From positions 1 through 37,449 of the IMG/VR virus record IMGVR_UViG_3300020056_001745: a stretch of 37,449 nucleotides of DNA; one strand, given 5' to 3'. This document shows positions 1-14,652 of the stretch, piece after piece. The position numbers were made by a program, and so were the translations under genes. The notes beneath the pieces were generated by a model. The model saw nothing but the letters and a program-made list of their open reading frames with translations, made no database searches and was not told where the DNA came from. This DNA comes from a virus. How positions within the stretch are numbered: the stretch's first letter is position 1; the number at the start of each line of letters is the position of its first letter.

Positions 1-94
1 CCATGTAAAATAATCTGTACTCTTCTTTAAGATCATTTCTTAACATACAGTATTTACATTACTGTTACATTTAGTGCGCTAACATTGGGGTATT

Positions 95-844
95 TTAGCC
101 GATTGTAAATCCGTAACCTACGCCACCAGCAACTTGCTGAATTACATCTTGCTCTAGTTTTTCCATTTCTTGCATTGCTTCATTTTTAAGATCATTACCA
201 TTAAGGGTTGACCCACCTTGTGGTCCTGCAATAGTAGCAAACTTTGAACGTGCTTCGCCTAACATATATTTACAGTTTGCCAAAGTATAATCTTTAATCC
301 ACTGCTTTGCTAGATAATCATCAAGTAGTTGCTCGTCTGGACGATAATTGTACGCCATGAGCATTAGTGTTTCGTCTGTTCTCGGACGCTGTAATAATGT
401 AAGTTTATGTGTTGTAGGATTCCATTTGAATTCGATGAACGATCCAAACATACGTCCTACAAGTTCTTGGTATTGGCTAAACAAATCATATGTTGCTAGT
501 CCTCCCATATTAGATGAACTTAACAGATATGTGTTAGTGTACGCAAGGTTAAATGGTTCAAACAAAGTGCCGCCGTCTCCGCCGCCTGTTCTTGATCCAA
601 TTGATCTACGAAAGATTCTTCGAACTTCAATAACTTCGTTTGGAAGTGTGTATTCATTTGTATCTTCCATAGTTTCCATAAACAAATACGATTCTTCTAC
701 ACTGTTATCTGAACGCTGTCTAAATTTAGTTAATGATTTAACTAAAGCAGTTTCATAATGGATAGGATCTAGTTCGACATCGACCATGCCGCCGCCTAGC
801 ATTGCGTGGACGTAGTCAAATATTTCTTGTTTTTGTGTAGCCAT
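95..844 (-). CDS. gp13: T4-like neck protein gp13 (head completion)
   Basis: Probable head-completion/neck protein that joins the filled head to the tail, working with gp14. The 249-residue product is full length, and its pattern matches the gp13 neck proteins of marine T4-like phages as I know them: an N-terminal helix followed by GGGMVDVELDP, a middle NTYLLSSSNMGGLATYDLF segment, YNYRPDE, and a C-terminal IAGPQGGSTLNG block followed by a helix. T4 gp13 is somewhat longer (about 309 aa). The ATG at 844 is preceded by a good Shine-Dalgarno (GGAGA at 853-858) and by a GATAAATA late promoter at 866-873, which would give a leader of about 16 nt. The gene points away from gp14, whereas in T4 the two run in the same direction. 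The assignment rests on recalled family similarity, not on a search. Confidence 0.72.
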   Translation of the reverse strand: MATQKQEIFDYVHAMLGGGMVDVELDPIHYETALVKSLTKFRQRSDNSVEESYLFMETMEDTNEYTLPNEVIEVRRIFRRSIGSRTGGGDGGTLFEPFNLAYTNTYLLSSSNMGGLATYDLFSQYQELVGRMFGSFIEFKWNPTTHKLTLLQRPRTDETLMLMAYNYRPDEQLLDDYLAKQWIKDYTLANCKYMLGEARSKFATIAGPQGGSTLNGNDLKNEAMQEMEKLEQDVIQQVAGGVGYGFTIG

Positions 845-865
845 ATATAAAGTTCTCCGATATAG

Positions 866-873
866 TATTTATC
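866..873 (-). promoter_or_regulatory. T4-type late promoter (GATAAATA) for gp13
   Basis: The minus strand reads GATAAATA, one base from the T4 late consensus TATAAATA. If it sits at -13 to -6 as in T4, transcription starts near 860. That leaves a 16-nt leader containing the GGAGA ribosome site of gp13. The same octamer recurs upstream of the 3740-aa gene. Confidence 0.62.
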
Positions 874-877
874 TTTC

Positions 878-885
878 GATAAATA
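878..885 (+). promoter_or_regulatory. T4-type late promoter (GATAAATA) for gp14
   Basis: The plus strand reads GATAAATA and forms a perfect 8-bp inverted repeat with the minus-strand copy at 866-873, separated by TTTC. Standard T4 late spacing would start transcription at 891, the A of the likely gp14 start codon. The transcript would then be leaderless. No other recognisable late promoter serves gp14 in the 40-bp divergent gap. Confidence 0.5.
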
Positions 886-890
886 TGTGT

Positions 891-1994
891 ATGCCAAGAC
901 TTAGCTTATATAAACCCGAACGTGGTAACGATTTTAACTTCCTAGATAAACAAATTCTAGAGATGTTTACTGTTGGTGGTACAGACATACATGTATACAA
1001 ATATATCGGTACTGATGACGGAACAACCGTTAAAGATCATACTCAAATACAAGATTTAATGTTTCTTGAAAATCGAGATAGAAAATACGATCAAGATATT
1101 TACAGACTTAGAGGCATATACAATGTACAAGATCAAGATTTTGATTTAAGTCAGTTTGGTTTGTTTTTAAGCAACGACACATTGTTTATGACAGTTCATA
1201 TACGCAGCAGTGTTGAAACTATTGGTAGAAAAATTATGCCTGGTGATGTATTTGAGTTGCCGCATTTAATAGATGAATATGCAGAAAATGATGCCAGTGT
1301 TGCTCTTAAAAGATTCTACGTTGTAGAAGATATTAATCGTGCTGCTGAAGGATTTTCACAAACATGGTATCCGCACTTATATCGTGTAAAACTAAAACAA
1401 ATATACGACGGACAAGAATATAAAGATATTTTAGATTTACCAGCAAGTGAAGATGCGCCCGATGGAGATACTTTAAGAGATATATTATCTACATACGAAA
1501 GAGAAATGAATATTACTACAGGAGTAATACAAGAAGCAACAGAAGAAACTCAAAAAAGCGGATATGATATCAGTCATTACTTTTCAGTATCCGTTGACGA
1601 CAACGGTATAGTAGAATTAACTGAAACAAAAGACGCAGACGGTTTATCCGAGATGGCGCCGCCTGATAGAGCAGGATACAAAGGATATATTATTGGTGAT
1701 TCTATTTCACCTAATGGAGAAGCATTTGGCTTTGGAGTTCAGTTTCCGGCAGAGCCAGAAACTAATGATTATTTTTTAAGAACAGATTTTTTACCTAATA
1801 GATTGTTTCAATTTAGAAATAATAAATGGAACAAAATTTACGATGTTAAACGTGCATTTGTTTACGGTGCAGATGAAACTAATACCCAGCGTGGCACATT
1901 TATTAATAATACCAATACTAATAATATAGGTGGCGAAGTAACCGAAGAAAGACAAAGTATTTCTCAAGCACTAAAACCTAAGGCGGATAACTAA
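891..1994 (+). CDS. gp14: T4-like neck protein gp14
   Basis: Probable neck protein, partner of gp13 at the head-tail junction. Residues about 90-130 (QFGLFLSNDTLFMTVHI, then IMPGDVFELPHLID) line up with the gp14 core of T4, where SNFGMQVQDEVTLSI is followed by GDLIYFPMDNSLF. At 367 residues it is longer than T4 gp14 (256 aa). The extra C-terminal part includes a YFLRTDFLPNRLFQF segment and a low-complexity TNTNN tail. The reading frame is open from an ATG at 885, but I prefer the ATG at 891 (MPRLSLYKPERGND), because 885 is the last base of the promoter motif. Neither start has a visible Shine-Dalgarno. The stop overlaps the gp15 start as TAATG, indicating translational coupling. Confidence 0.76.
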   Translation: MPRLSLYKPERGNDFNFLDKQILEMFTVGGTDIHVYKYIGTDDGTTVKDHTQIQDLMFLENRDRKYDQDIYRLRGIYNVQDQDFDLSQFGLFLSNDTLFMTVHIRSSVETIGRKIMPGDVFELPHLIDEYAENDASVALKRFYVVEDINRAAEGFSQTWYPHLYRVKLKQIYDGQEYKDILDLPASEDAPDGDTLRDILSTYEREMNITTGVIQEATEETQKSGYDISHYFSVSVDDNGIVELTETKDADGLSEMAPPDRAGYKGYIIGDSISPNGEAFGFGVQFPAEPETNDYFLRTDFLPNRLFQFRNNKWNKIYDVKRAFVYGADETNTQRGTFINNTNTNNIGGEVTEERQSISQALKPKADN

Positions 1995-3418
1995 TGCAAC
2001 ATTTTTATGATGGACAAATACGTAGATATCTTACACAAATAGTTAGATTGTTTGGACAATTTAGTTATAAAGACGGTAAGGGTAGACTAGTACAAGTTCC
2101 AGTTACATACGGCGACTTAACAAGACAAGTAGGAAGTATCCTTAGAGATAATTCTGAAAATAAAATTCCTAGCGCACCAAGAATGGCTGTGTATATAACC
2201 GGACTAGAAATGGATACTTCACGTCTAGCAGATAGCAGTTATGTTAATAAGCTAAACATTAGAGAACGTGCATATGATGTAGACGGCCAAGAATATTTAA
2301 ATAAAGCAGGTAAAAATTATACAGTAGAACGTATAATGCCAACCCCTTATACTCTTACTGTAAACGTAGACATATGGACTACTAATACGGATCAAAAATT
2401 ACAAATACTTGAACAAATTTTTATGTTGTTTAATCCTAGTTTAGAAATACAAACAACAGACAATTATATCGATTGGACTAGTTTAAGTGTTTTAAATATA
2501 GATAACATAAACTTTAGTAGTAGAAGTATACCAACTGGTACTGAAAGTGAAATTGATGTTGCTTCGATTAGTTTAACAACACCTATCTTTATTAGTCCTC
2601 CTGCAAAAGTTAAAAAATTAGGAGTTATTAGTAAAATAATTACAGCAGTATTTGCAGATCACGGATTAGAAGTTAATATAGACGAAACTGCTTACACACA
2701 AAGTTTAGTTGAACAAAAAATTAAAGAGAACGAAGAAACAGACAAAGTTAATAGTCAACCAGATGAAGCATTGACTAATGAAAGTGCATTAGTAGTAACT
2801 ACATATCAAGATTATGGATTAGAAGTGTTTGATGGTGTTGCAAGATTATTAAAGAATGGTGTTAATCGAAACGATACATGGACTGCTTGGAACATTGCGC
2901 AACCATTTACATTTGAACCTGGAATTACACAATTACGATTACAACGTGCAAACGGTTTAGAAATAGTATTTACTATTGATAGTATTGATACTACAGACGA
3001 AACACGACTTATACTAAATGCTCCTGATGCAGAAACATTACCAGCAGATTCTGTTATACCAGGTCCTGCTGGTGACAAAACATATGTTGATTATATTATA
3101 GATCCACTAAGATTTGATCCAATGCAATCGCAATCAAATAATAGACTTTTATTATTAGGTAGTATAGGTGATCCTAATAATACTAATGGCGCTCTGGCAT
3201 GGAAGAATTCAGATAACTCAGATTTTGTAGCAAGTGAAAATGATATTGTAGAATGGGACGGTTCACGCTGGCACATTGTTTTTGATGCTAGTGAAGAAAC
3301 TAACGAAGCATTTGTAACTAATCTAAACACACAAACACAATACAAATGGACAGGCGAGTATTGGATACTCTCTTATGAAGGAGAATATCCAAATGGCTCT
3401 TGGAGGTTTACATACTAA
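1994..3418 (+). CDS. gp15: Tail sheath stabilizer and completion protein gp15
   Basis: Terminates the contractile tail and binds the neck. The N-terminus (HFYDGQIRRYLTQIVRLF, then VPVTYGD) matches the T4 gp15 opening FYNSSFRRYATLMGDLF...VPITYAS. The block TPYTLTVNVDIWTTNTDQKL followed by ILEQIFMLFNPSLEIQ matches the gp15 core with its MIYELSIFTRYEDDMFQIVEQILPYF. Length is 474 aa against 272 in T4. The extra C-terminal part of about 200 residues has two regions: residues ~265-350, and a terminal WDGSRWHIVFD...YKWTGEYWILSYEGEY segment that looks like a small beta module. The start overlaps the gp14 stop by one base, and AAGGCGG lies just upstream. Its 3' end overlaps the NUDIX gene by 26 bases. 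Confidence 0.82.
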   Translation: MQHFYDGQIRRYLTQIVRLFGQFSYKDGKGRLVQVPVTYGDLTRQVGSILRDNSENKIPSAPRMAVYITGLEMDTSRLADSSYVNKLNIRERAYDVDGQEYLNKAGKNYTVERIMPTPYTLTVNVDIWTTNTDQKLQILEQIFMLFNPSLEIQTTDNYIDWTSLSVLNIDNINFSSRSIPTGTESEIDVASISLTTPIFISPPAKVKKLGVISKIITAVFADHGLEVNIDETAYTQSLVEQKIKENEETDKVNSQPDEALTNESALVVTTYQDYGLEVFDGVARLLKNGVNRNDTWTAWNIAQPFTFEPGITQLRLQRANGLEIVFTIDSIDTTDETRLILNAPDAETLPADSVIPGPAGDKTYVDYIIDPLRFDPMQSQSNNRLLLLGSIGDPNNTNGALAWKNSDNSDFVASENDIVEWDGSRWHIVFDASEETNEAFVTNLNTQTQYKWTGEYWILSYEGEYPNGSWRFTY

Positions 3419-3863
3419 GATAATTATTAGTATGAAAGACATTATTTGTAGTGGTGCATTAATTTATTCTCTAAAGTCTAAAATGTTTCTATTTCTGCAT
3501 AGAGCAAACGGAAGCCGTAATAATGTTTGGGGCTTAGTTGGTGGAACTAACGAAGGTTTAGAAACACCCTGGGAAGGTTTGCGCAGAGAAATTGAAGAAG
3601 AAATAGGCTCTATAAATATAAAGAAAACTATTCCTTTAGAAACATTTGTATCTAACGATTCTAAGTTCCAGTTCCATACATATCTTTGCGTTATCGAAGA
3701 TATTTTTATTCCTAAACTTAATAACGAGCATGACGGATTTGCTTGGGTAGAATTTAGTAAATGGCCGAAACCTTTACACTCAGGTTTGCAAAGCACTCTC
3801 AATAGAAAAAGTAATATTACTAAATTAAAAACAGTAATCGAAGTAATAGATTTACTTGACTAA
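3393..3863 (+). CDS. NUDIX hydrolase
   Basis: Hydrolase of a nucleoside diphosphate linked to another group; the substrate is unknown. The Nudix box GX5EX7REUXEEXGU is complete at residues ~51-73 (GTNEGLE, then REIEEEIGS), including the metal-binding REXXEE. The only deviation is Ser at the last hydrophobic position. I chose the ATG at 3393 (156 aa, MALGGLHTK) because AAGGAG lies nine bases upstream at 3378-3383, inside gp15. An ATG at 3432 lacks a good ribosome site. The gene is the first of the sugar island and overlaps gp15, so it is probably translated with the late structural message. A role in clearing or recycling ADP-sugars would fit the neighbours but is only inference; ADP-ribose, dNTP or RNA-cap substrates are equally possible. 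Confidence 0.85.
   Translation: MALGGLHTKIIISMKDIICSGALIYSLKSKMFLFLHRANGSRNNVWGLVGGTNEGLETPWEGLRREIEEEIGSINIKKTIPLETFVSNDSKFQFHTYLCVIEDIFIPKLNNEHDGFAWVEFSKWPKPLHSGLQSTLNRKSNITKLKTVIEVIDLLD
3611..3618 (+). promoter_or_regulatory. Possible internal late promoter (TATAAATA)
   Basis: A perfect T4 late consensus octamer on the plus strand inside the NUDIX gene, about 270 bp upstream of hldE. It could start a separate late transcript for the heptose genes. It encodes residues in a normal coding stretch of an AT-rich genome, so a chance match is quite possible. Confidence 0.3.
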
Positions 3864-3889
3864 TAATCATAAAGGTAGTATAATAAATT

Positions 3890-5032
3890 ATGTCTAAAGT
3901 ATTAGTTATTGGTGATTTAATAAATGATAGGTATATTTTTGGTTCTTCGACTAGGTTAAGTCCTGAAGCACCTGTACCTATTGTAAGTCAGGATCGTATA
4001 GAAGAATTTCTTGGTGGCGCAGGACTTGTTTATAACAACTTAAAAAGTTTAGGCGTCGATGCAACTTTATTAGAATACGACGATCCAAAAAGTGAAAAAA
4101 CTCGTGTAATCTGTGATGGCCATTATGTTACAAGAATAGACGACGATCGTTATGCTAACGGATTAGATATTTACAATGATATTAAAAAATTAGATTTATC
4201 TAATTTTGAATATGTTATTCTTAGCGATTACAATAAAGGTGTATTAGAATATTCAAAAGATATTATTGCACATCTTAATAGTTTTGATTGTAAAGTTATT
4301 GTAGATCCTAAACGCCACGTTAGTTGTTATGACGGGGCTTGGTTAGTAAAACCTAATTACAAAGAATACAAAGAATTAGGGTTTGAAAAATGGGACGGTA
4401 ATATAATTGTCACTAATTCTAGTAAAACTACTACTGCTGAATTTGATTTAAAACGTTATGTTTCGCAACCTGAACCTTTAGAAGTTAATGATGTAACCGG
4501 AGCCGGAGATTGTTTTCTTGCTGCATTTGTTTATGCGCTAACTAAAGGGTATGATTATCAAAAAGCATTAGATTTAGCAAATAGAGGATCAACTGAAAGT
4601 GTAAAACACGTAGGTACATATATTCTTACTGAAAAAGACTTGAATAAACGTATTGTTTTTACTAACGGATGTTTTGATGTATTGCACAAAGGTCATCTTA
4701 CATTACTAAAAGAAGCTCGCAGTTTAGGTGATAAACTTGTAGTAGGACTGAATAGTGACGGTAGTGTAAAACGCTTAAAGGGAGACAACAGACCGTTTAA
4801 CGATCTTGAAACAAGACGAGAACAATTAGAACTTATTCCGTATGTAGACGAAGTTATTGTATTTCATGAAGATACGCCATATGAGCTTATTAAAGAACTA
4901 AAGCCAGACTTAATTGTTAAAGGTGGAGACTATACTGTAGAAGAAATTGTAGGACATGATTTAGCACCTGTGCATATTGTACCTACAGTACAAGGTTACA
5001 GTACAACAAAAATTTTAGAGGCGTCTGTATGA
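3890..5032 (+). CDS. hldE: Bifunctional HldE: heptose-7-P kinase / ADP-heptose synthase (compact)
   Basis: Carries two steps of ADP-heptose synthesis: phosphorylation of D-glycero-D-manno-heptose 7-phosphate at C1, and later transfer of AMP to heptose-1-phosphate. The N-terminal PfkB/ribokinase-type kinase opens with VLVIGDLINDRY, then SPEAPVP and GGAG, and ends with the catalytic DVTGAGD at residues 201-207. The C-terminal cytidylyltransferase-like domain begins at TNGCFDVLHKGH, with the HXGH nucleotide site at H266-H269. It continues through LKGDNRPFN, VKGGDY and a terminal GYSTTKI. At 380 residues it is about 100 shorter than E. coli HldE (477). The losses fall in the kinase lid region, before DVTGAGD, and in the interdomain linker; the catalytic motifs remain. 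AAAGG lies upstream of the ATG. The stop overlaps hldD as ATGA. Confidence 0.92.
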   Translation: MSKVLVIGDLINDRYIFGSSTRLSPEAPVPIVSQDRIEEFLGGAGLVYNNLKSLGVDATLLEYDDPKSEKTRVICDGHYVTRIDDDRYANGLDIYNDIKKLDLSNFEYVILSDYNKGVLEYSKDIIAHLNSFDCKVIVDPKRHVSCYDGAWLVKPNYKEYKELGFEKWDGNIIVTNSSKTTTAEFDLKRYVSQPEPLEVNDVTGAGDCFLAAFVYALTKGYDYQKALDLANRGSTESVKHVGTYILTEKDLNKRIVFTNGCFDVLHKGHLTLLKEARSLGDKLVVGLNSDGSVKRLKGDNRPFNDLETRREQLELIPYVDEVIVFHEDTPYELIKELKPDLIVKGGDYTVEEIVGHDLAPVHIVPTVQGYSTTKILEASV

Positions 5033-5847
5033 AAATTTTAATTACTGGACACAAAGGATTTATTGGACAAAATCTAACTCTTAGATTACAAGACGAACAC
5101 GAGCTATCAGGATATGAATGGCAAGCTGATTATTTGCCTGAAGTTGAAGGCTATGATTGGGTTATTCATTTAGGTGCTATTTCAAGCACAGCTGAACGTA
5201 ATGTTGATAAGATCATGTTACAAAATTATGAATTTTCAAAATGGTTGTTTAATCAATGTAATCTAAAAGGTGTAAATTTTCAATATGCATCTAGTGCAAG
5301 TGTATATGGACCATACGAAAAGTTTAAAGAAGAAGATCCAAAACAACCACAAAGTCCGTATGCTTGGAGCAAGTATCTTTTTGATAGATGGGTTACTGGA
5401 CTCTCAAAAAGAAACATTATAGTTCAAGGATTTAGATATTTTAATGTATACGGTCCTTTAGAAGACCACAAAGGACATCAAGCAAGTCCTATAACTAAAT
5501 TTACTAATCAAGCAAAAGAAACTGGTACTATTTCTTTATTTGAAAACAGCGACAAATACAAAAGAGATTTTATTTTTGTAGGCGATGTATGTGAAGCACA
5601 TAAAAAATTATTATCTAGTGATGTTTCCGACATTTATAATATAGGAACAGGAACTACTACAAGTTTTCAACAAATAGCAGACATTATTGCTAAAAAATAT
5701 GATGCAAAAATTAAATATGTACCGATGCCGGATCATTTAGCAAATCAATATCAAGAGTACACATGTGCAGACAATTCAAAATTAAGTAATATTGTAAAAA
5801 TTAATTTTACAACAGTAGAGGAATATATAAATGGATCAGCCAACTAG
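5029..5847 (+). CDS. hldD: ADP-L-glycero-D-manno-heptose 6-epimerase HldD
   Basis: Extended short-chain dehydrogenase/reductase that inverts C6 of ADP-D-glycero-D-manno-heptose to give the L-glycero form. The NAD(P)-binding GHKGFIG is at residues ~7-13. The active-site set is SSASVYG followed by Y111xxxK115 (SPYAWSK). The segments FRYFNVYGPLEDHKGHQAS, KRDFIFVGDV and YNIGTG follow E. coli HldD closely (FRYFNVYGPREGHKGSMAS, KRDFVYVGDV, FNLGTG), which separates it from UDP-glucose epimerases. It is 272 aa against about 310, mildly compact. The start overlaps the hldE stop by four bases (ATGA), and the last 17 bases overlap the cupin gene, so the genes are co-translated. Confidence 0.9.
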   Translation: MKILITGHKGFIGQNLTLRLQDEHELSGYEWQADYLPEVEGYDWVIHLGAISSTAERNVDKIMLQNYEFSKWLFNQCNLKGVNFQYASSASVYGPYEKFKEEDPKQPQSPYAWSKYLFDRWVTGLSKRNIIVQGFRYFNVYGPLEDHKGHQASPITKFTNQAKETGTISLFENSDKYKRDFIFVGDVCEAHKKLLSSDVSDIYNIGTGTTTSFQQIADIIAKKYDAKIKYVPMPDHLANQYQEYTCADNSKLSNIVKINFTTVEEYINGSAN

Positions 5848-6217
5848 AAAGTCAGGTGTAGATCAAAAAGGTTGGGGCTACGAAATGATTTGGGCCACAA
5901 ATGATTTATACTGCGGAAAAATTATGGTGTTTACTAGAGCTGGAGCAAAAACTAGTATGCACTTTCATAAAGAAAAAGACGAAACTTGGTTTGTAAACAA
6001 CGGCAAATTTAAGGTTGCATACATTGATACAAAAAATTCAAAACTACATGAAAAAGAACTTAATGAAGGCGAAGTTTGGAGGAATCCTCCATTACAGCCA
6101 CATCAATTAATTTGTCTTTCGAAAGAAGGAAGTGTTACAGAAGTTAGCACTCCAGATAGTGTTGAAGACAACTATAGAATTATTCCCGGCGACAGTCAAG
6201 TATTAAGCGAAGAATAA
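5831..6217 (+). CDS. Cupin protein, phosphomannose-isomerase type II-like
   Basis: Single-domain cupin of 128 aa. Cupin motif 1 is visible as MHFHKEKDETWFVNNGKF (residues ~44-61; metal ligands expected among H45, H47 and E51), and motif 2 as NPPLQPHQLI, whose His would be the last ligand. The opening GWGYEMIW with CGKIMVF resembles the small cupins related to type II mannose-6-phosphate isomerase that sit in sugar gene clusters. A hexose or heptose phosphate isomerase or epimerase role is inferred from the context. It could conceivably stand in for the missing GmhA step, but nothing in the sequence proves that. The start codon lies inside the end of hldD, preceded by AGAGG. Confidence 0.78.
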   Translation: MDQPTRKSGVDQKGWGYEMIWATNDLYCGKIMVFTRAGAKTSMHFHKEKDETWFVNNGKFKVAYIDTKNSKLHEKELNEGEVWRNPPLQPHQLICLSKEGSVTEVSTPDSVEDNYRIIPGDSQVLSEE

Positions 6218-6218
6218 A

Positions 6219-6917
6219 ATGTATAGCATAAACTGGAGCAATAAAAAATCAGACAACACTGTATCCGATAAAAAAGAATCTGCGATTCGATACAGTACAG
6301 ATAAAACAGAAGAAGAATATAATATTCCATTCTACGATACTGTGAATAATATTGCACCAAAAGTTGTTGTAGGTTTAGATAGAGACGGTGTTATTAATGT
6401 TGATCGTGGAGACTATACCTACAAGGTAGACGACTTTGAACCGATCGAAGGTAGTTTAAAAGCAATAGCTAAAATTCGTAGACTAGGTCATAAAATTGTT
6501 ATTATAACAAATCAAGGCGGTATAAGTAAAGGCATTTATACTCAAAACGATGTTGACACTGTACATAATCATATGTTTAATTTATTAGGTGAAGCAGGCT
6601 GTGCAAGTATAGATGCTCTTTATTATAGCGAAACTAGTGCTAGATGGGACCAGTATGCAAAACCTAATACCGGTATGTTTAAAAGATGTGAAAAAGAATT
6701 TCCTTTTATTAAATTTTCAAAAGGATTTTATGTAGGCGATAAAATATCAGATCTAAAAGCTGCTTTTAAAATGGGAGCAAAGCCTGTACTAGTAAAAACA
6801 GGCTACGGAAATGAAACGTTAAAAGAACTTAACAAGTTTTCTAATCAAAAAATTAAAAAGAAAACTATTGTTTTTGATAATTTATCTAGCTTTGCTGATT
6901 GGTTATCTCGTCGATAG
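6219..6917 (+). CDS. gmhB: GmhB-like HAD phosphatase (heptose bisphosphate phosphatase)
   Basis: HAD-family phosphatase expected to remove the 7-phosphate from heptose-1,7-bisphosphate between the two HldE steps. The nucleophile motif is GLDRDGVINVD with D54 and D56. Motif II is IITNQGG. KPNTGM supplies the conserved Lys, and motif IV is YVGDKISD. All of these match the histidinol-phosphatase/GmhB branch. Two things are unusual. There is an N-terminal extension of about 50 polar residues. The Cys/His zinc loop of E. coli GmhB is replaced by YYSETSARWDQYAKP, with no Cys or His. The ATG comes one base after the cupin stop. The 3' end overlaps the oppositely directed oxygenase gene by 32 bases. 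Confidence 0.82.
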   Translation: MYSINWSNKKSDNTVSDKKESAIRYSTDKTEEEYNIPFYDTVNNIAPKVVVGLDRDGVINVDRGDYTYKVDDFEPIEGSLKAIAKIRRLGHKIVIITNQGGISKGIYTQNDVDTVHNHMFNLLGEAGCASIDALYYSETSARWDQYAKPNTGMFKRCEKEFPFIKFSKGFYVGDKISDLKAAFKMGAKPVLVKTGYGNETLKELNKFSNQKIKKKTIVFDNLSSFADWLSRR

Positions 6918-7509
6918 CTATTCCAAAATTTGCACTAATAGTGGATCTTAATTCATCAGCCTTGTGTGTTGATACATAATGATCTAAACTAGCAGGAAAG
7001 AAAATAATATCCCCTTCTTCTAGCGGCGGCGTAACTCTTCTTCCCATAAACGGTTTGTTTGTAAAGCATTGTGCAAGATGTACCGGAAAATGACTGTAAC
7101 TAGAATCATAAAAAGAAAAACTTGCACTGTTTGGTGGTAACTTTAACATATATGCACAGCTAATTACTAAATTTCCACCACTATGGGAATGTACTTCTTG
7201 GTATTGTCCTTTTGTATATCTATTTGCCCATGCTTGTCCGTACATTTTTTCACATGCTTCTTGTGACAATCCTATAGAATATGCATATTCGTCTACTAAA
7301 TTATAAACAGTTTTAAAAAACAAATGCCAAGGAAATAAACTATTTTTTTCATCATTTTGAATTGTTGTTCTACAGTCACAATCCCAAAATGTTGCTTGAT
7401 CAAAATTATCTTCAGACTCAATAAAAGGAGTAAATCCTTTTAAAATTTCTTCGTGATTAGGCATTTTTGTTTTATATACAGGTGTGCCAAAAATTACATT
7501 AAGACTCAT
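6886..7509 (-). CDS. 2OG-Fe(II) oxygenase family protein
   Basis: Likely iron- and 2-oxoglutarate-dependent dioxygenase that hydroxylates an unknown substrate. The 207-residue protein has the late-phage oxygenase pattern: a conserved start (LNVIFGTPVY), then YQEVHSHSGGNLV with candidate iron ligands H107 and H109, then EGDIIFFPASLDHYVSTH with H177, and shortly after an Arg (DELRSTISANFG) suited to bind 2-oxoglutarate. These features resemble the TIGR02466-type family common in marine myoviruses. AAAGG precedes the start. The first bases overlap the end of the carbamoyltransferase gene by 11, so it is the last gene of a coupled three-gene minus-strand arm. The substrate is unknown; sugar or protein hydroxylation are both possible. 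Confidence 0.8.
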   Translation of the reverse strand: MSLNVIFGTPVYKTKMPNHEEILKGFTPFIESEDNFDQATFWDCDCRTTIQNDEKNSLFPWHLFFKTVYNLVDEYAYSIGLSQEACEKMYGQAWANRYTKGQYQEVHSHSGGNLVISCAYMLKLPPNSASFSFYDSSYSHFPVHLAQCFTNKPFMGRRVTPPLEEGDIIFFPASLDHYVSTHKADELRSTISANFGIAIDEITNQQS

Positions 7510-9292
7510 TTTTTACCTTTACTAACTTTTTCTTTTCTGGCAAATACAAATATTCAATTTTACTTTTTGCTAGTGTATGGAATGCATCTTCTAAAGTTTC
7601 AACTAGAGGATCGCCGCCTAAATTAAAACTTGTATTAAAAATAATCGGACAACCTGTCTTTTCTTTAAAGGCTTTAATCAAATCATAGTAGTTTGCATTT
7701 TGTTCTCTGTTAACAGTTTGAATACGGCAAGTTCCGTCTACGTGAATAATAGCAGGAATCTTTTCTTCTACTCCGGGCTGACAATTAACAGCATACATCA
7801 TTGTAGGAGAGTTTTTCATACCTCGCAAGTCAAACCATTCATGCACATCTTCTTCTAGAATAGATCCTGCAAATGGGCGGAAATATTCTCTGTTTTTAAC
7901 ACGATTTACAAAATCTTTTCCGTCAGGATCTGTTGGATCATAAAGAATACTTCTATTACCTAATGCACGTGGGCCGTTTTCACTACGTCCTTGAAATATT
8001 GTAACAATATTTTTGTTTGTAATTAAGTCGATAACATCTTCATTAGTAGCATCTGTAACTTCGGCAGAGTATTTTTTTGCTAGTTGTTGGATATCACCTT
8101 CTGTAATTTTATAATCTGGTCCTAGATAAACAGTTTCAGCTTGAGAATCAATCGACATATCTTTAGTAAGACTTCTATGTAACCACAATGCTGCACCCAT
8201 TGCAGTGCCGCCGTCATTTGAAACCGGCTCTACATAAAGATTAATATCATTGTCTATCTCTTTTAAATAATGATAATTTGCAACACAATTCAACCCATAT
8301 CCACCGCTTATAACAACATTTTTAATTCCTGTAGATTCAACAGCATGTTTTATTAGTTGAGTTACCGCTGCTTGAGATTCTACTTGTACTGCATATGCCA
8401 TATCTCTTCTATTTTGGCATAGTGTTGCATCTTCTTCACCTTTGTCAATCAAATAACTATATAAATTTTCGTTTAGAATAGAACCGTTTGGATATCTCGG
8501 AACAAATAAACTTCTATTACTTACTGGAATAGGCAAATCAGTATATGGATCAAATACCGGAGGAATTAAATCATTAGGTTTACCATATGGAAATAATCCC
8601 ATAGTTTTTCCAGCTTCAATGGCATCCCAGCCACAGTATTCTGTTACACCCTCATAACACTTAACAATGCCTGCTCTATCAGATAACGAAGTTGAAAATT
8701 TACCTATTTCTTTACCAAAAATATCTTGATCAGGTGCTGTAAGTTCTGCTGTTGGCAGATAGTCTCTACAACCCATAGTTTTAAAAAGAGTTTGTATATT
8801 GTCTGGATATGTACATTTATATAATGTTTCAGTTTCCCACATATGTTTTATAGATCCGTCAACTTCTAAATCAAAACAAGTCCCAGCACCGTCAACAATA
8901 ACTGCTACTGCTTCTTCAAAGCCACTTCTATAAAATGCTAAACTGGCATGCATTTTATGATGTAGTTTAGATACATCGATTACTTGTGGATGCGGATCCC
9001 AAGGCGGAGAATACTCTATTAGACCTACTTTTCTAGCAAGACCTGTGTAAATATCCTCAGCAGTATAATCAACTCTACCAGCTGTTTCTGCAAGAGTTTG
9101 TGTATGCGATATTACCATGTAATCAAGTTTGTCTGTATACTCTAAAATTTTTAGAATTGACGCTAACGGTCCTCCATCGTACTTTTTACGAGTAAGTCTT
9201 TCTTCTTCAATAGAAAAAACTATTTCTCCATCTTTTAATAAGCATACTCCAGCATTGTGTCCTCTAGCAAGTCCTGCTATCCACATACTCAT
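7499..9292 (-). CDS. NodU/CmcH-family O-carbamoyltransferase
   Basis: Transfers a carbamoyl group from carbamoyl phosphate, through carbamoyl-AMP, to a hydroxyl, usually on a sugar. Full length at 597 aa. The N-terminal Kae1-like ATPase domain opens with GLARGHNAGVCLL and IEEERLTR, and carries HHKMHASLAFYRS near residue 110 followed by VIVDGAG. The C-terminal domain has the family signature GRSENGPRALGNRSIL near residue 435, then VKNREYFRPFAGS. The family includes NodU, CmcH and TobZ. O-carbamoylated heptose is known from the Pseudomonas LPS core. Starts at 9292 in an ATGA overlap with the GT9 gene; a second ATG two codons on is also possible. The neighbouring heptose genes make a heptose-containing acceptor an attractive inference. 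Confidence 0.92.
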   Translation of the reverse strand: MSMWIAGLARGHNAGVCLLKDGEIVFSIEEERLTRKKYDGGPLASILKILEYTDKLDYMVISHTQTLAETAGRVDYTAEDIYTGLARKVGLIEYSPPWDPHPQVIDVSKLHHKMHASLAFYRSGFEEAVAVIVDGAGTCFDLEVDGSIKHMWETETLYKCTYPDNIQTLFKTMGCRDYLPTAELTAPDQDIFGKEIGKFSTSLSDRAGIVKCYEGVTEYCGWDAIEAGKTMGLFPYGKPNDLIPPVFDPYTDLPIPVSNRSLFVPRYPNGSILNENLYSYLIDKGEEDATLCQNRRDMAYAVQVESQAAVTQLIKHAVESTGIKNVVISGGYGLNCVANYHYLKEIDNDINLYVEPVSNDGGTAMGAALWLHRSLTKDMSIDSQAETVYLGPDYKITEGDIQQLAKKYSAEVTDATNEDVIDLITNKNIVTIFQGRSENGPRALGNRSILYDPTDPDGKDFVNRVKNREYFRPFAGSILEEDVHEWFDLRGMKNSPTMMYAVNCQPGVEEKIPAIIHVDGTCRIQTVNREQNANYYDLIKAFKEKTGCPIIFNTSFNLGGDPLVETLEDAFHTLAKSKIEYLYLPEKKKLVKVKNES

Positions 9293-10269
9293 ACATTTTC
9301 TCCGAAATTTTCTTTTGGTTGTTTAGGTGCAGTCTTAATAGACTTACCTACAGTTTGTTTAATTGATTTTACGATATCATTAATATGTTCTTTGCTCATA
9401 TTCATTGCTTTATCGTTTAATCTATCTGGTTCTTCTTCAGTACTTACACGTATAGGACTATAAACTCTTCTACCGTCTCCTATATCAAACACTGTTATAT
9501 CTTTGTCATTTAGATAAGTTGTGTTGATAGGAAAAGTACTTCCTGTAATTACAGTTGCTTGTTTTCCTAAAGATTTTGCAATATGTTGTCCTACACTGTC
9601 ACAACCTAAGAAATGATCAGCTGCTTCTATTACACCTGCCCATATTCTAATATCCGGTATTTGAGGTTGTGCAAGCGGAGTGTTATCGCCGTCTTCATTA
9701 TAAAATGGTAAGGGAAGTTCACTCATAATAATAACACCATAATCTTGTTTCAGTTGATTAGCAATATCAAGCATATCTTCTGCTCTAAAACTTCTAGATG
9801 TTTGGTCTATTAAACTTTCTTCAACACCTCGGCCAAATGGTTGTATTACAATAACTTTATTAAATCCAGTAACATCTTTTACTTCTTGTACTACTGATTT
9901 TCCATTATGCTGTTCTGATTTATTAAGATATATGTTAGGTATAGGTACTTCTCTTATGCCTTGTTTATTAATTTCAATATCAAATGCTTGTGCAAGACTA
10001 CATTTTTGATTATAATATTCCCATATACGATATGGTTCTGGACTTACACAATTTCTATCTTTGATATATTGTTCAAATAATCCTTTATGCCATACATCGT
10101 ATGCACGTCTATGAAGTGTAGGATGTCCTTTATAAAAGTCAGTTCCGCCTTCGCAAACAATAATAAAATCGTCATTTGGATTTTCTTTTTCATATAGTTC
10201 AAGTGCTGGAATTGAGGTTATAACACGACCGGCACCGCCGTTAATAAAGAATGCTGTAGATCTAGTCAT
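9289..10269 (-). CDS. Glycosyltransferase family 9 (heptosyltransferase-like)
   Basis: Probable GT-B fold glycosyltransferase of the ADP-heptose:LPS heptosyltransferase family (GT9), 326 aa. The N-terminal FFINGGAGRVITSIPALE corresponds to the usual GxxGD(V/I) plus TxPxL opening, although the Asp is replaced here (GAGRV). The donor-binding half has VIVIQPFGRG and, near residue 220, the GT9 signature GCDSVGQHIAKSLGK followed by TGSTFP. In the family this last stretch reads ndsGxxHlAaalg...fGpt. GT9 members act either on the LPS core or, like the TibC/Aah autotransporter heptosyltransferases, on proteins. The gene lies directly downstream of a consensus late promoter (10296-10303), with AAGG as ribosome site. 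It is translationally coupled to the carbamoyltransferase. Confidence 0.78.
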   Translation of the reverse strand: MTRSTAFFINGGAGRVITSIPALELYEKENPNDDFIIVCEGGTDFYKGHPTLHRRAYDVWHKGLFEQYIKDRNCVSPEPYRIWEYYNQKCSLAQAFDIEINKQGIREVPIPNIYLNKSEQHNGKSVVQEVKDVTGFNKVIVIQPFGRGVEESLIDQTSRSFRAEDMLDIANQLKQDYGVIIMSELPLPFYNEDGDNTPLAQPQIPDIRIWAGVIEAADHFLGCDSVGQHIAKSLGKQATVITGSTFPINTTYLNDKDITVFDIGDGRRVYSPIRVSTEEEPDRLNDKAMNMSKEHINDIVKSIKQTVGKSIKTAPKQPKENFGENV

Positions 10270-10295
10270 TAAGATACCTTTTTGTAATTACAAAA

Positions 10296-10303
10296 TATTT
10301 ATA
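10296..10303 (-). promoter_or_regulatory. T4-type late promoter (TATAAATA) for the GT9-carbamoyltransferase-oxygenase arm
   Basis: A perfect T4 late consensus octamer on the minus strand in the only sizeable intergenic gap. By T4 spacing transcription starts near 10290, 21 nt before the GT9 start codon. A terminator sits immediately upstream, so the arm is a transcription unit of its own with late timing. Confidence 0.72.
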
Positions 10304-10342
10304 GTACACTTGATCCTATAATTACAAAAATGGTTTCATAAA

Positions 10343-10370
10343 AAAAGGCTGTACAAATATACAGCCTTTT
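10343..10370 (-). terminator. Rho-independent terminator of the structural operon
   Basis: A perfect 11-bp stem (AAAAGGCTGTA pairing with TACAGCCTTTT) around a 6-base loop. On the minus strand it is followed by an uninterrupted run of T (10346 to 10340). It lies 19 bases after the stop of the assembly-chaperone gene and upstream of the GT9 promoter. It therefore ends the long fibre-gene transcript and separates it from the sugar genes. Confidence 0.88.
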
Positions 10371-10388
10371 AAGTTTTATATGTAACAG

Positions 10389-11228
10389 TTATTCACCGTA
10401 TGGGTTATTAGAATCATAGCCTTCAACGCCATACTCTTCATTTAGTTCATCACACTCTGGCCAACAAGAATCAACAAAGATTAAATCAATTCCTGCATCT
10501 TGCATTACTTGCGGAAAGTCTCTAAGACGTTGCTTGTATGTTTCGATGCCTGCGGCTCTGTCTGCATCTACGCTTGAAAAAACCATTGCCGGTGCATCTG
10601 CTTCGGCAAGTCTTTGGTTTCTCTCAACTTTTATCATAGGCCATGTCTGAGGTAGTCCCATTACATCTACGTTTGAATTTTTATATAGGTCTAACGAATT
10701 AGTTTCAAAGTTCCATATAGATTTTTTATCATCGTATAACTCATCTGGATGAATTGGATATTCGTATGAAAAATGTCCATACCCTTCAATCGGAGTTGCA
10801 GGGATTGTTTTTTCACCAGGAGTTTCCTCCCAATCTTCTAAATCTTTATAATTATCATGATAATCTGATAAAACTTCAGCACCCAATGGATCTACAGTAG
10901 CATCGAGTTTAATAAGTTCTACTTCTTCTGGAATTTGACTAAAATCTTGTGTGATTTCTCTTGCTTCAAATTCTCTCCATACAGACTCAAATGATCCTAC
11001 AGGATTTGCTCCTTCCGTATCCTTCCAAGCATAAAAATAAAGATACTTAGGTCCTTTATATGTCATACTAATTGTTTCTGTTGTTTCACCGTCTAGATAA
11101 TTATCATTAGGACAATCATATGTATAATTTACCTCAACCCACTCAGTACCGTGTTCATCAGTATCTGTTATAGTACGATAATCAACTACTTCGCTTTCTA
11201 ATTCATCATTTAAATTGTCATCAGCCAT
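10389..11228 (-). CDS. Putative tail fibre assembly chaperone
   Basis: 279 residues, acidic, beginning MADDNLNDELESEVV. The segment at residues ~197-240 (KVERNQRLAEADAPAM, then ETYKQRLRDFPQ) has the recurrent pattern of phage tail fibre assembly/tail assembly chaperone proteins: RxxRLxxxD followed by YRQxLRDxP. In those proteins it is the C-terminal chaperone-like domain. The rest, including a Trp- and Tyr-rich middle with VEVNYTYDCPNDN and GHFSYEYPIHPDE, is not recognised. It is the last gene of the structural operon, just after the adhesin and S74 fibre genes, which is the usual place for a fibre chaperone. GGAG precedes the start. It could alternatively be a virion protein. Confidence 0.55.
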   Translation of the reverse strand: MADDNLNDELESEVVDYRTITDTDEHGTEWVEVNYTYDCPNDNYLDGETTETISMTYKGPKYLYFYAWKDTEGANPVGSFESVWREFEAREITQDFSQIPEEVELIKLDATVDPLGAEVLSDYHDNYKDLEDWEETPGEKTIPATPIEGYGHFSYEYPIHPDELYDDKKSIWNFETNSLDLYKNSNVDVMGLPQTWPMIKVERNQRLAEADAPAMVFSSVDADRAAGIETYKQRLRDFPQVMQDAGIDLIFVDSCWPECDELNEEYGVEGYDSNNPYGE

Positions 11229-11231
11229 TAA

Positions 11232-12095
11232 TTATCTCCAAGTAATTCTTACTAGTCCAGGATTTCCAGGTGTACCTCTACAGTTTCCTAAATCCTGTCC
11301 ACACGTTGCTTTAATTAGATTTGACCCTGCCTTGGCAATTTGTCTAAATCCTTTACAACAATTTGTACAACCGCAGTACTTAGTACCTGTCTGCATAGCA
11401 TATTCGTGTCTATTTTTAATACCCCATGATTCTGATGTAGCACTTGCTCGTGAACCACAGTTCATGTTTGATCTGTATCTGTTAAAATAAGATTCGTTAC
11501 CTAAGTCAACAAAATCCCATTTACAACCAATACATAGTCCTAAGTTACACATGCCTTCACTTCTGTTACCTTGGTTGATACAGAAGCATACACAATATAG
11601 ATTGTATCCGCCTCTTCCGCCCGGTACACATCCGCAACATATACCCGATCCGCTAAACCAACTACCACATCCTCTTGGTGCATCACAACAAGCCGTAAAA
11701 CACCCACAACCGTTATTGGTTGTACCATTGCCGCCTGCTCCTACACAGTAGTTGTAACTACATCCTGGTACAAACTGTCCATCAATTCTTCTAATAGTCT
11801 TCCGACCATAATATCCAGCATAAGCGCCACAACTTGCAATGTCGCAGAAACAGTTTCTACAACATTGGCCTGCTCCCGAGCCGCCGCCACTCCATACTTC
11901 AAATGTTATCTCTGATGCACACGTTGGTGCCGACCAACTTCCGCAACGTCCGCAGTGCGCTCGACATCCGTGCGGACCGTTACACACTGAGCATGTATTA
12001 AAACATTGAAACATGCCCCCAGAGGTAACACCTTGTGTTCTTTGGCACGTTCCGTCTGGAAATCTAATACCATCTGCGTATAAACAAGTTGCCAT
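11232..12095 (-). CDS. Cysteine- and glycine-rich adhesin-like fibre protein
   Basis: A 287-residue protein with 37 cysteines (about 13 percent), many as CC, CxC or CxxC, and abundant glycine. The N-terminal ADGIRFPDGTCQRTQG resembles the FPDGTxQxTA opening of marine phage fibre tips. ITFEVWSGGGSGAGQCC and VPGCSYNYCVGAGG follow, and the end (GNPGLVRITWR) resembles the last strand of glycine-rich tail adhesins. I recall comparable Gly/Cys-rich proteins among cyanophage structural proteins, but know of no assigned function. The position between the S74 fibre and the assembly chaperone suggests a fibre-tip receptor-binding protein, analogous in place to gp38 of T-even phages. No signal peptide or membrane segment is visible. 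AGGAGAGG precedes the start codon, which directly abuts the stop of the S74 fibre gene. Confidence 0.68.
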   Translation of the reverse strand: MATCLYADGIRFPDGTCQRTQGVTSGGMFQCFNTCSVCNGPHGCRAHCGRCGSWSAPTCASEITFEVWSGGGSGAGQCCRNCFCDIASCGAYAGYYGRKTIRRIDGQFVPGCSYNYCVGAGGNGTTNNGCGCFTACCDAPRGCGSWFSGSGICCGCVPGGRGGYNLYCVCFCINQGNRSEGMCNLGLCIGCKWDFVDLGNESYFNRYRSNMNCGSRASATSESWGIKNRHEYAMQTGTKYCGCTNCCKGFRQIAKAGSNLIKATCGQDLGNCRGTPGNPGLVRITWR

Positions 12096-14300
12096 TTATT
12101 CCTCTCCTTTTAAACTATTTATTTCTGCTTTTAGTTCTTTGATTGCTTCAACTAATAATGGTACAAGTCTTTCGTATTGCAATGTTATGTAGTCATTGCC
12201 TGAAATACTTTCACCTTCTTCTCCTCTATCAAATGGAGCATCGTGAATCACTTGAGGAAGAACTTTTTGAACCTCTTGCGCTATTAAACCTACTTCTTCG
12301 ACTTCAGCACTAAATCCAGCTTCAATGGCTGTTTCATTCCAGTTATATGTTATACCGTTTAGTGACATAACTTTATCTAATGCACTGTCAATGTTTTTAA
12401 TATTTGTTTTAAGTCTTGCATCTGAAGTATTTGAAATAATATTTTCAGTAGCAGTAATACGTCCTGCAACGTTTGGATCTGCTGTGTTAACACCAATACA
12501 ACGTACACTTGTAAGATTTTTGCTTGAGTCAAACAAATCATTGCCTGCCATTTTAATAGCACCAACGTTTACGTTAATACCTGTATCGTCTAAAATTTGG
12601 AACCAAATTTTATTTGAATCTTCTGGTTCTTTAAAGTCTAATCCTTCAGGTGTTGCAAGTATTTCACAGTCAACGCCTGAGTCACTTGAACCATTAAATG
12701 TAATACCTGGATTAGTAGTACCGTATAAGTTTATTTTACCGCCGTTATTATTAATAGTACCGTTAATAGTATGTGAGTCACTTGTTGCATTACCTAGTGT
12801 GCCGTTACCGTTATAACTAAAGTTACCACTTGCACTTAGACTTGTAAATGCACCTGAACTAGCACTACTTGCACCGATTGACATATTGTTAATTGTACCA
12901 CTACCCGGGTTAAGTGTTAGTGACCCTGCTGGTGATATAGTAACTGTACCTGTACCACTTGGTGACATAGTTACGTTAGCATTATTTGGTGAAAATGTAA
13001 CTGTTGAGTTAGCATCGAGTGTTGTAAACTGTCCAGTACTTCTTGATACGTTACCAATTGCGCCTACAAAGCCGCCTCCTGAATAAACACGTTTAGCAAT
13101 ACTTGCACCACCTTCACAACGTAACTGTCCTGTGTCACCTGTTGCATTTGTTGCTTCACCTGTGCCTGTAATATCTACTACACCACTTGCTGTTACACTT
13201 GTAAAAGTACCTGTATTGCTACTTACGTTACCAATTGGACCTTGGAAACTACCTGAATAAAGTGCTCCGCTTACACCTAATCCGCCTGTTATAACTACTG
13301 TACCTGTTGTAGTATTAGTTGATGCTGTATTTGCTGTAAATGTTGTTGCACCGCTTGATGTTAGTGTAGTAAATGCACCTGTATTAGCTGTACCGCTGCC
13401 AACTGGCCCATTGATTCCGCCTGCGTAGATTGATCCACCTACGCCTACACCACCTGTTACAACTACTGCACCGCTACCTGTTCCTGAGCTTGCTGTTGCA
13501 GAGCTAAGTGTTACATTACCACTTGCGTTAAGTGTTGTAAATCTACCAGTTCCTGGTGTTGTAGCACCAATATTCATGCCATCTATTGTACCTGCACTGT
13601 CAGAACTAATTGTTACTGTAGTACCTGATCCTATTACTACTGGACCATCTGGATCTATAGTAACTGCTGAACCTGCATCTGTTGGAGAAATTGTAACAGT
13701 TTGTCCTGACGTTGTAAATTCAATGTTACCTGGAAAACTTGTAGTTTCTCCTGCATCACCGATTGATACTGTACCCGTACTAGAACTTAAATTTAAGTTT
13801 CCTGCAGGACGAATAGTTGCTTGTCCGCCTGGCTGTATTGAGACGGAGGATTGCGGACTAATGTCAACTGTTCCTGTTCCTGTTGGTTTAATTTGTATGT
13901 TTTCATCTGCAGGATTAAGTTCTACTGGACCATCTGCATTTAGTACATCATTAAATGTAACTGGTAATTCAAATACTGTAGTACCTGCTAACGCACTTGT
14001 TAGAACGTAATTAGTACCGTCTGATGTTAAAGTATAAGTTGAGTTTGTTGGAATATCAATCTCAGTACCTAGTGTAACACCGTTACCAGTAATTTGTCCT
14101 GCTGCTGTACTAAGAGTAATCATATCAGCAGTAGCATTATAAAATGTTTGTTTGCTACCAGGGAAAAATACAGGACTTACCATTTCAACTGTATATCCCG
14201 GAGTTCCGGTTAAACTGATAATTCCACCTGTAAACGCATAGGTAAATTCTGTTGCTCCGGTTACTTCTAGCGTTTGTGGTGCTGTATTATAACGTGCCAT
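12096..14300 (-). CDS. Tail fibre with C-terminal S74 intramolecular chaperone
   Basis: 734-residue fibre. The middle is beta-rich repeats: a TISP/TVSI/NLNLSS-type stack at ~120-250. After it come several copies of a unit ending in GPIGNVSSNTGTFTSVTASG (also GPVGSGTANTGAFTTLTSSG and GAIGNVSRSTGQFTTLDANS). The last 109 residues are a Peptidase_S74 chaperone: TSDARLKTNI, then LNGITYNWNE, VGLIAQEVQKVLPQVI, and a YERLVPLLVEAIKELKAEI coiled-coil end. S626-D627 matches the conserved Ser-Asp where this family self-cleaves after helping the trimer fold, so the mature fibre would be about 626 aa. The N-terminus (MARYNTAPQTLEVTG) has no known attachment domain that I recognise. GGGGA precedes the start. 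Confidence 0.86.
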   Translation of the reverse strand: MARYNTAPQTLEVTGATEFTYAFTGGIISLTGTPGYTVEMVSPVFFPGSKQTFYNATADMITLSTAAGQITGNGVTLGTEIDIPTNSTYTLTSDGTNYVLTSALAGTTVFELPVTFNDVLNADGPVELNPADENIQIKPTGTGTVDISPQSSVSIQPGGQATIRPAGNLNLSSSTGTVSIGDAGETTSFPGNIEFTTSGQTVTISPTDAGSAVTIDPDGPVVIGSGTTVTISSDSAGTIDGMNIGATTPGTGRFTTLNASGNVTLSSATASSGTGSGAVVVTGGVGVGGSIYAGGINGPVGSGTANTGAFTTLTSSGATTFTANTASTNTTTGTVVITGGLGVSGALYSGSFQGPIGNVSSNTGTFTSVTASGVVDITGTGEATNATGDTGQLRCEGGASIAKRVYSGGGFVGAIGNVSRSTGQFTTLDANSTVTFSPNNANVTMSPSGTGTVTISPAGSLTLNPGSGTINNMSIGASSASSGAFTSLSASGNFSYNGNGTLGNATSDSHTINGTINNNGGKINLYGTTNPGITFNGSSDSGVDCEILATPEGLDFKEPEDSNKIWFQILDDTGINVNVGAIKMAGNDLFDSSKNLTSVRCIGVNTADPNVAGRITATENIISNTSDARLKTNIKNIDSALDKVMSLNGITYNWNETAIEAGFSAEVEEVGLIAQEVQKVLPQVIHDAPFDRGEEGESISGNDYITLQYERLVPLLVEAIKELKAEINSLKGEE

Positions 14301-14315
14301 TCTTTATTCCCCTAA

Positions 14316-14636: not shown

Positions 14637-14652
14637 TTTTAATTCTCCGTCC

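Follow-up and report, generated by a model that had tools for sequence, protein, structure and literature searches.

Heptose and carbamoyltransferase gene clusters in T4-type phages

In the cyanophages P-SSM2, S-SM2 and S-SSM7, the T4-GC gene clusters 304, 305, 307 and 308 belong to a group of seven co-occurring lipopolysaccharide (LPS) genes, and the carbamoyltransferase cluster 303 is listed as well (PMC3037559); parts of the gene set described below are therefore already published as co-occurring LPS genes. The same report, of 2010, left it as a question whether the cyanophage LPS genes are functional or 'stuffer DNA'. Pelagimyophages carry rfaE and glycosyltransferases, with a host recognition cluster located before the neck gene gp14 (PMC7029224). 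Here we describe a related locus in the virus record IMGVR_UViG_3300020056_001745 (37,449 bases; "the window" denotes this whole stretch), in which eight adjacent genes, including putative heptose supply genes, a glycosyltransferase (GT) and an O-carbamoyltransferase (CT), form an island close to the fibre genes. Our preferred reading is that this is a virion-modification island, responsible for the late carbamoyl-heptosylation of a tail-fibre-region protein, and we put its probability at roughly one half.

The cyanophages P-SSM2, S-CAM3 and S-SSM7 (Kyanoviridae) and Sf-FS3 share with the window GT, CT, HldE kinase and adenylyltransferase, a HAD protein, a cupin and HldD (T4-GC 302-308). A 2-oxoglutarate (2OG) oxygenase, as present in the window, is also found in P-SSM2, S-SSM7 and Sf-FS3. 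In S-CAM3, S-SSM7 and Sf-FS3 the same kind of set lies between the fibre genes and gp13; S-CAM3 has an additional fibre gene and a virion gene ahead of gp13, and its stretch lacks an annotated 2OG oxygenase. In P-SSM2 the set lies among the fibre genes. The window differs from these clusters in several respects: HldE is fused whereas theirs is split, HldD is located on the supply arm, the genes are arranged in two convergent arms, and the HAD protein is GmhB-like instead of the small EcbF-type. Moreover, the neck and sheath genes of the window are nearest to those of jumbo phages. The host recognition cluster of the pelagimyophages resembles the window in combining sugar genes with rfaE, glycosyltransferases and fibre genes before a neck gene, but the word carbamoyltransferase has no occurrence in the text of that study, and GT8 is the most represented glycosyltransferase family there (PMC7029224). 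Heptose genes were further described for the cyanophage SynMITS9220M01 (a heptose 7-phosphate kinase, HldD and a so-called phosphoheptose isomerase; PMC7378029), which we liken to the window by description only, and a heptosyltransferase I for a huge wastewater phage (PMC10747093). In the open-access literature we found no publication naming a GT-CT(-heptose) unit, the GT fold or the late motif discussed below.

Layout of the island

The eight genes of the window are the following.

3375..3863, plus strand: NUDIX hydrolase (PF00293, E 3e-13; Nudix box at residue 57)
3890..5032, plus strand: HldE, predicted kinase-adenylyltransferase fusion (NF008454, E 4e-83, below the NCBIfam cut-off)
5029..5847, plus strand: HldD, predicted ADP-glyceromanno-heptose 6-epimerase (TIGR02197, E 3e-71, below the cut-off)
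5831..6217, plus strand: small cupin, function unknown (Cupin_1, E 1e-5; weakly WbuC-type; phrog_7851)
6219..6917, plus strand: GmhB-like HAD phosphatase (NF006506, E 4e-40, below the cut-off; matches 4pnh and 2gmw)
6886..7509, minus strand: 2OG-Fe(II) oxygenase (PF13759, E 2e-13; phrog_81)
7499..9292, minus strand: NodU/TobZ-type CT (PF16861, E 1e-59; PF02543, E 1e-23)
9289..10269, minus strand: GT9-fold GT (phrog_8954; fold model; catalytic Asp replaced by Arg15)

All eight open reading frames (ORFs) are thus present at 3375-10269, five on the plus and three on the minus strand, and from HldE onward the adjoining genes overlap or almost touch, which gives the island an operon-like arrangement. 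Seven of the ORFs are matched by family models and the eighth, the GT, by phrog_8954; the synteny of the island is retained in many contigs. The dN/dS values range from 0.07 to 0.40 for all eight genes and from 0.07 to 0.17 for the GT alone in three comparisons; at a dS of 0.9-1.6 these values are rough. The genes are under purifying selection and, given the family and phrog matches, the kept synteny and the low dN/dS, are not chance ORFs. The initial annotation of the window, made from its sequence alone, had proposed eight adjacent genes between tail and fibre genes, and both points are borne out: the layout is that of a convergent two-arm island between the neck/sheath genes and the fibre genes.

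Co-occurrence of GT, CT and the heptose genes

Absence of co-occurrence in related phages had been named in advance as refuting the proposed unit, and it was not found. In the best 80 of 440 GT loci, some of which are near-identical, a CT is encoded on the same strand as the GT in all 80 cases: directly downstream in 69 (including L002-L005, where GT and CT overlap by one base), downstream at 1.1-2.0 kb in eight and directly upstream in three. Locus counts, here and below, represent homology to the proteins of the window, so that diverged copies are missed; the GT-selected, HldE-selected and cyanophage loci together hold 63 distinct GT ORFs. The other partners are less constant. Among the 58 GT loci with at least 9 kb downstream we found the HAD in 49, 2OG in 46, cupin in 36, and HldE and HldD in 32 each; CT, 2OG, HAD, cupin, HldD and HldE occur all together in 29, with NUDIX as well in 18. 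The GT-CT pair of the proposed eight-gene unit therefore stands, whereas an obligate unit is weakened by the 29/58 count. Conversely, the 27 HldE-selected loci with at least 8 kb downstream contain HldD (27), cupin (27), HAD (24), CT (18) and GT (18), and a GT is present in eight of ten HldE-selected records. In a phage collection, the 23 records with a full-length GT, repeats of about ten viruses, all hold the nearest CTs as well (44.9-60.3% identity; 39.3% for the next record). One of the cyanophages, S-CAM1, is known here from match tables only.

The CT and the oxygenase

The CT matches 7xb6 and TobZ, and contains both Pfam domains as well as the HxxxH motif that is typical of NodU/TobZ O-carbamoyltransferases. 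Its earlier identification holds, as does that of the 2OG oxygenase by PF13759. In a midpoint-rooted tree of 39 ORFs from 35 loci, selected out of 138 ORFs and with some long branches, the CT of the window groups with other GT-adjacent CTs in a clade of 26 rows (support 100/98). Outside this clade lie the thymidylate-synthase-linked CTs of S-RIM44 and Sf-CH3 (both split, with only the longer piece included), the CTs of the P-RSM4 type, and shorter second copies of the CT from S-SSM7, Sf-FS3, L167 and L171. The shortened second CTs of S-SSM7 (L164:17507-18616) and Sf-FS3 (L166:16667-17824) form a clade of their own with a CT from a Rhodobacteraceae metagenome-assembled genome (MAG) contig.

A conserved late motif upstream of the GT

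10296..10303, minus strand: TATAAATA, a T4-type late promoter motif whose end lies 26 bases ahead of the GT start codon

The T4-type late promoter consensus is of the TATAAATA type. The core ATAAATA was found in 58 of the 65 distinct GT upstream regions, against 1.7% of 4,000 random stretches from the same loci, and the full TATAAATA in 35 of the 65, against 0.3%; since the GT upstream regions are related, these counts represent conservation and not independent events. ATAAATA also precedes gp13 (28/28), the Cys-rich gene (10/10) and the virion gene (10/30), whereas it is found upstream of none of 56 HldE, one of 55 HldD and none of 66 CT genes. The sequence comparison thus points to a GT-CT operon under a conserved T4-type late motif, while transcription of the heptose arm probably continues from the upstream virion gene unit. 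The initial annotation had both arms read from late promoters; this is supported for the minus arm, but there is no motif for the heptose genes themselves, and for the plus arm the support is only indirect, by way of the virion gene.

Counting motifs in the window alone was dropped as evidence for promoters: TATAAATA is not enriched (two copies against 6.6 expected, the other copy lying inside the NUDIX gene), and it is the conservation across loci that is informative. Likewise, a scan for sigma-70-type sites in bases 1-15000 was uninformative (54 sites against 64.3 expected). In the divergent gap between gp13 and the virion gene (845-891), ATAAATA is visible by eye on both strands, the plus-strand copy overlapping the annotated start codon of the virion gene.

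A heptosyltransferase fold with an altered active site

The assignment of the GT to family GT9, made in the initial annotation, is not supported at the Pfam cut-off (PF01075: 12.7 bits against 22, E 0.078), although PF01075 does match 14 of 47 GT relatives with E values of 1 or below (lowest 0.0014). A profile search of the PDB by sequence alone produced one weak, unrelated match. The AlphaFold model (pLDDT 86) is what argues for GT9. Over residues 1-311 it aligns best with 3tov (Z 21.9; Foldseek E 8e-10), followed by WaaF (19.6), WaaC (18.6) and TibC (18.4); the plant NDH-PSI chains 9grx_1, 7wff_a and 7f9o_6 also match (Z 18.2-18.9), and all remaining structures score 11.9 or less. The modelled protein clearly has the GT-B fold of the GT9 heptosyltransferases WaaC and WaaF.

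The fold shared with WaaC, WaaF and TibC (Z 18.3-19.6 over the three) is accompanied by one likeness and two differences. The GT residues Asp224 and His229, present in 75 of the 76 distinct homologues (the remaining one has an unread base), resemble the C-terminal Asp and His of the E. coli GT9 proteins. In contrast, the loop equivalent to that of WaaC Asp13, which we take to be the catalytic Asp of the first-loop GD motif, reads NGGAGR in the GT, with Arg15 in place of the Asp; this mapping was derived from a weak hhalign match (probability 1.2%, E 0.045) and the start of the structural alignment (model residue 3 on WaaC residue 1). TibC has its catalytic Asp at position 110 and an N-terminal beta-barrel at residues 1-97 (PMC4358343). 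Such a barrel is absent from the GT, the first residue of the model aligning at TibC residue 92. The purifying selection on the GT argues against a dying enzyme; a different residue could serve as the catalytic base, or the GT could lie outside the classical heptosyltransferases.

The Arg-type enzyme was encountered here only in phage or phage-like sequence. A scan of 84,980 genomes for bacterial relatives of the GT with peptide patterns, which miss distant kin, yielded seven GT loci. As all seven hold a CT, and six of them homologues of the Cys-rich, APC or fibre proteins of the window, these loci look like phage sequence binned with MAGs, with less certainty for the longest contigs.

Heptose supply

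Five chemical steps make up the dedicated route to ADP-heptose, and HldE carries out two of them. The initial annotation counted three of four steps as present; judging from the family assignments, four of five appear to be encoded in the window, by HldE, HldD and the GmhB-like HAD, and the proposed ADP-heptose supply is strengthened by the active-site residues kept in HldE and HldD. HldE is predicted to be a reduced heptose-7-phosphate kinase fused to a heptose-1-phosphate adenylyltransferase: the PfkB kinase and adenylyltransferase domains that define HldE are both present and the GAGD Asp207 of the kinase is kept, while stretches of E. coli HldE are absent from the shortened kinase. Burkholderia HldA is the nearest match of the kinase model (Z 28.0, 35% identity; 25.4 for the best other kinase). 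The main stretch missing from HldE of the window is also absent from the split kinases of five cyanophages, and longer frames of 418-424 codons occur in three other records. HldD has 1eq2 as its best PDB match (E 5e-47) and keeps Tyr111, Lys115 and Lys148; Tyr111 and Lys148 are invariant in a five-row alignment with E. coli HldD, in which the acid/base pair is presumably Tyr140 and Lys178. In an alignment with E. coli GmhB, the HAD keeps Asp54 and Asp56 but lacks the Cys-rich loop, which binds zinc in the E. coli enzyme.

GmhA was not seen by the initial annotation either, and its SIS_2 domain was found in none of 30 related records, all of them fragments and the record of the window not among them. 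With four of five steps encoded, the host would have to supply heptose 7-phosphate for the pathway to run. A gene of P-SSM2 and S-CAM3 annotated as phosphoheptose isomerase (phrog_1238) encodes a small EcbF-BcbF-type HAD (L162:18021-18365 and L163:15936-16256), so that no recognised GmhA is annotated in these two stretches. Two database labels should accordingly be revisited: the phrog_1238 members that we checked are HAD phosphatases rather than isomerases, and phrog_8954 has a GT9 fold.

Proposed function and alternatives

A pathway can be proposed that starts from host D-glycero-D-manno-heptose 7-phosphate. The HldE kinase would phosphorylate C1, the HAD would remove the C7 phosphate, the adenylyltransferase domain of HldE would add ADP, and HldD would flip C6 to yield ADP-heptose. 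The GT9-fold enzyme would then transfer heptose, or a close relative, to a tail-fibre-region protein, at a hydroxyl that the 2OG oxygenase may have introduced, and the CT would cap the sugar with a carbamoyl group. Heptose as the donor, the order of the steps and the roles of the 2OG oxygenase and the cupin are what we infer from the predicted enzymes; so is the choice of a fibre, rather than a host glycan, as the acceptor. We favour a fibre protein because of the location of the island, the late motif, the constant GT-CT pairing, the report that cyanobacterial LPS is without heptose (PMC4390846) and the precedent of TibC, a GT-B heptosyltransferase able to modify proteins (PMC4358343). In a more general form, an Arg-type GT9 enzyme, a dedicated CT and 2OG oxygenases would put carbamoylated heptose on the tail fibres of marine and estuarine T4-type phages with at least two backbones, an extension that we offer tentatively.

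Several observations weigh against the modification of fibres by heptose. Arg15 is found in all 76 distinct GT homologues, down to 40% identity; because the catalytic Asp of GT9 is thus replaced, the donor and chemistry of the GT may differ from those usual in GT9, and the proposed use of heptose, suggested by the fold, is weakened. Beside GT-CT the HAD (49/58) is nearer to constant than HldE (32/58), which a pure heptose pathway leaves unexplained. Of 24 whole records selected by GT, 18 contain kinase and adenylyltransferase (one kinase stretch with a stop codon), but five are without an HldE match and one more has only a weak adenylyltransferase-like match, contigs of 86 and 145 kb being among these six. 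No acceptor was identified, and a collagen-like target of hydroxylation was tried and rejected: nine fibre-side ORFs contain no Gly-X-Y run of at least five, and a single run of eight was found across the loci. The tail-assembly-chaperone-like (APC) gene near the GT could be no more than a component of the fibre module. Finally, late timing and a fibre neighbourhood would also be compatible with a host glycan as the target, and similar genes were interpreted by the authors of the pelagimyophage study as host-surface modifiers (PMC7029224).

The latter interpretation leads to the alternative that, late in infection, the island changes a glycan on the host surface (LPS or O-chain), as a possible means of preventing re-adsorption of progeny or superinfection. 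A host-surface role was proposed for rfaE and the glycosyltransferases of the host recognition cluster (PMC7029224), and WaaC and WaaF, which share the fold of the GT, act on LPS. We nevertheless regard it as rather unlikely. The heptose set is carried by cyanophages although the LPS of their hosts is reported to be heptose-free (PMC4390846), which, as far as the cyanophages are concerned, argues against a role in completing host LPS; moreover, the island holds a single recognised glycosyltransferase, and the GT has its late motif and fibre-gene neighbourhood.

Alternatively, the sugar used by GT and CT could be a different one provided by the host, and the heptose genes could form a module of their own, frequently close by but without a causal link. 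The Arg in the GT and the GT-CT records without HldE would agree with this, as would the occurrence of HldE without GT in P-TIM68, S-T4 and two of the ten HldE-selected records; in P-TIM68, HldE, HldD and the cupin adjoin other sugar genes, with no GT match. On the other hand, all 23 GT records of the phage collection have an HldE match, near full-length in 22 (the 4-kb record MH319735 has only the adenylyltransferase part), and 22 have HldD. Furthermore, the same GT-CT pair has HldE nearby in both lineages, although the enzyme is a fusion in one and split in the other; where HldE is absent, hosts with heptose LPS could supply the ADP-heptose. This separation of the two modules therefore seems improbable to us.

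Modification of DNA bases by the CT, as by the 5-hydroxymethylcytosine (5hmC) carbamoyltransferase with which it shares its Pfam families (PMC8670742), is very unlikely: the assayed enzyme, which is outside our tree sample, has a different gene context, DNA-acting CTs being linked to thymidylate-synthase-family genes and the CTs of unmodified contigs adjoining glycosyltransferases (PMC8670742), and although the thymidylate synthase gene of P-SSM2 lies about 4.5 kb past its island, PF00303 is found in none of ten related records (fragments; ThyX-type enzymes were not sought) and the thymidylate-synthase-linked cyanophage CTs fall outside the GT-adjacent clade.

Returning to the fibre-modifying island, the cyanophage sugar genes now appear as a tight unit, with GT and CT paired in 80 of the best 80 loci, a late motif, adjoining fibre genes and heptose supply in two layouts. 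If the product does sit on the fibres, adsorption could be influenced by this virion modification, which would also be a virus-encoded hypermodification of protein with a sugar reportedly lacking in the LPS of the cyanobacterial host. The replacement of Asp by Arg in a heptosyltransferase fold poses a clear question of enzymology.

Islands without HldE

The two GT-CT islands without HldE that we annotated contain five (L028) and two (L066) 2OG oxygenases, with DUF6445 in both. The stretch L028:12786-18829 encodes five 2OG oxygenases, DUF6445, a PPIC-type isomerase and a cupin, with no HldE match in the 86-kb contig; L066:11056-18010 encodes a 2OG oxygenase, DUF6445, a second 2OG oxygenase and a Trp halogenase, as well as a GmhB-like HAD that is not accompanied by the other genes of the heptose pathway. 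The 2OG oxygenases and the Trp halogenase of such islands could act on side chains, which speaks for a protein as the target.

The NUDIX gene

The start at 3393, originally given for the NUDIX gene and the island, is an internal ATG of the ORF that begins at 3375; Met20, at 3432, lies past the stop of gp15 and is the likelier start. The inclusion of NUDIX in the heptose pathway is doubtful. NUDIX is present in 79 of the 80 HldE-selected loci, which counts against its separation from the heptose genes, but it adjoins gp15 in 104 loci, three of them without detected HldE, and in PA5oct-like phages, among them Cassandra, Ettore and Paride, the annotation places a NUDIX gene next to that of the sheath. 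We therefore set it aside as an unlikely member of the pathway; it probably belongs with the tail-sheath gene.

Surrounding genes

A virion protein gene and the tail-sheath gene lie upstream of the plus arm, and gp13 is divergent. On the far side of the minus arm, the following features precede the fibre genes.

10343..10370, minus strand: terminator-like palindrome and T run, after the fibre-side operon, which it separates from the GT operon
10389..11228, minus strand: tail-assembly-chaperone-like protein with Phage_tail_APC motif, the usual 5' neighbour of the GT
11232-12095, minus strand: Cys-rich protein, phrog_4205 (unknown), 287 aa with 37 Cys and 50 Gly

The best matches of the neck and sheath genes in the phage collection are in the PA5oct-like, Phosso and Atu_ph07 jumbo phages, which indicates that islands related to that of the window occupy the fibre-neck region of two backbones. 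The description of the phage as T4-like holds in a wide sense, the Gp23 major capsid protein being present in seven of ten related records. An APC-family ORF was found within 600 nt upstream of the GT in 66 of 88 loci (five loci without room being excluded) and within 6 kb in 86. Homologues of the Cys-rich gene occur near the GT in many loci. The fibre region of the window further contains two giant ORFs on the minus strand, 14653-25875 (3740 aa) and 25908-33758 (2616 aa).

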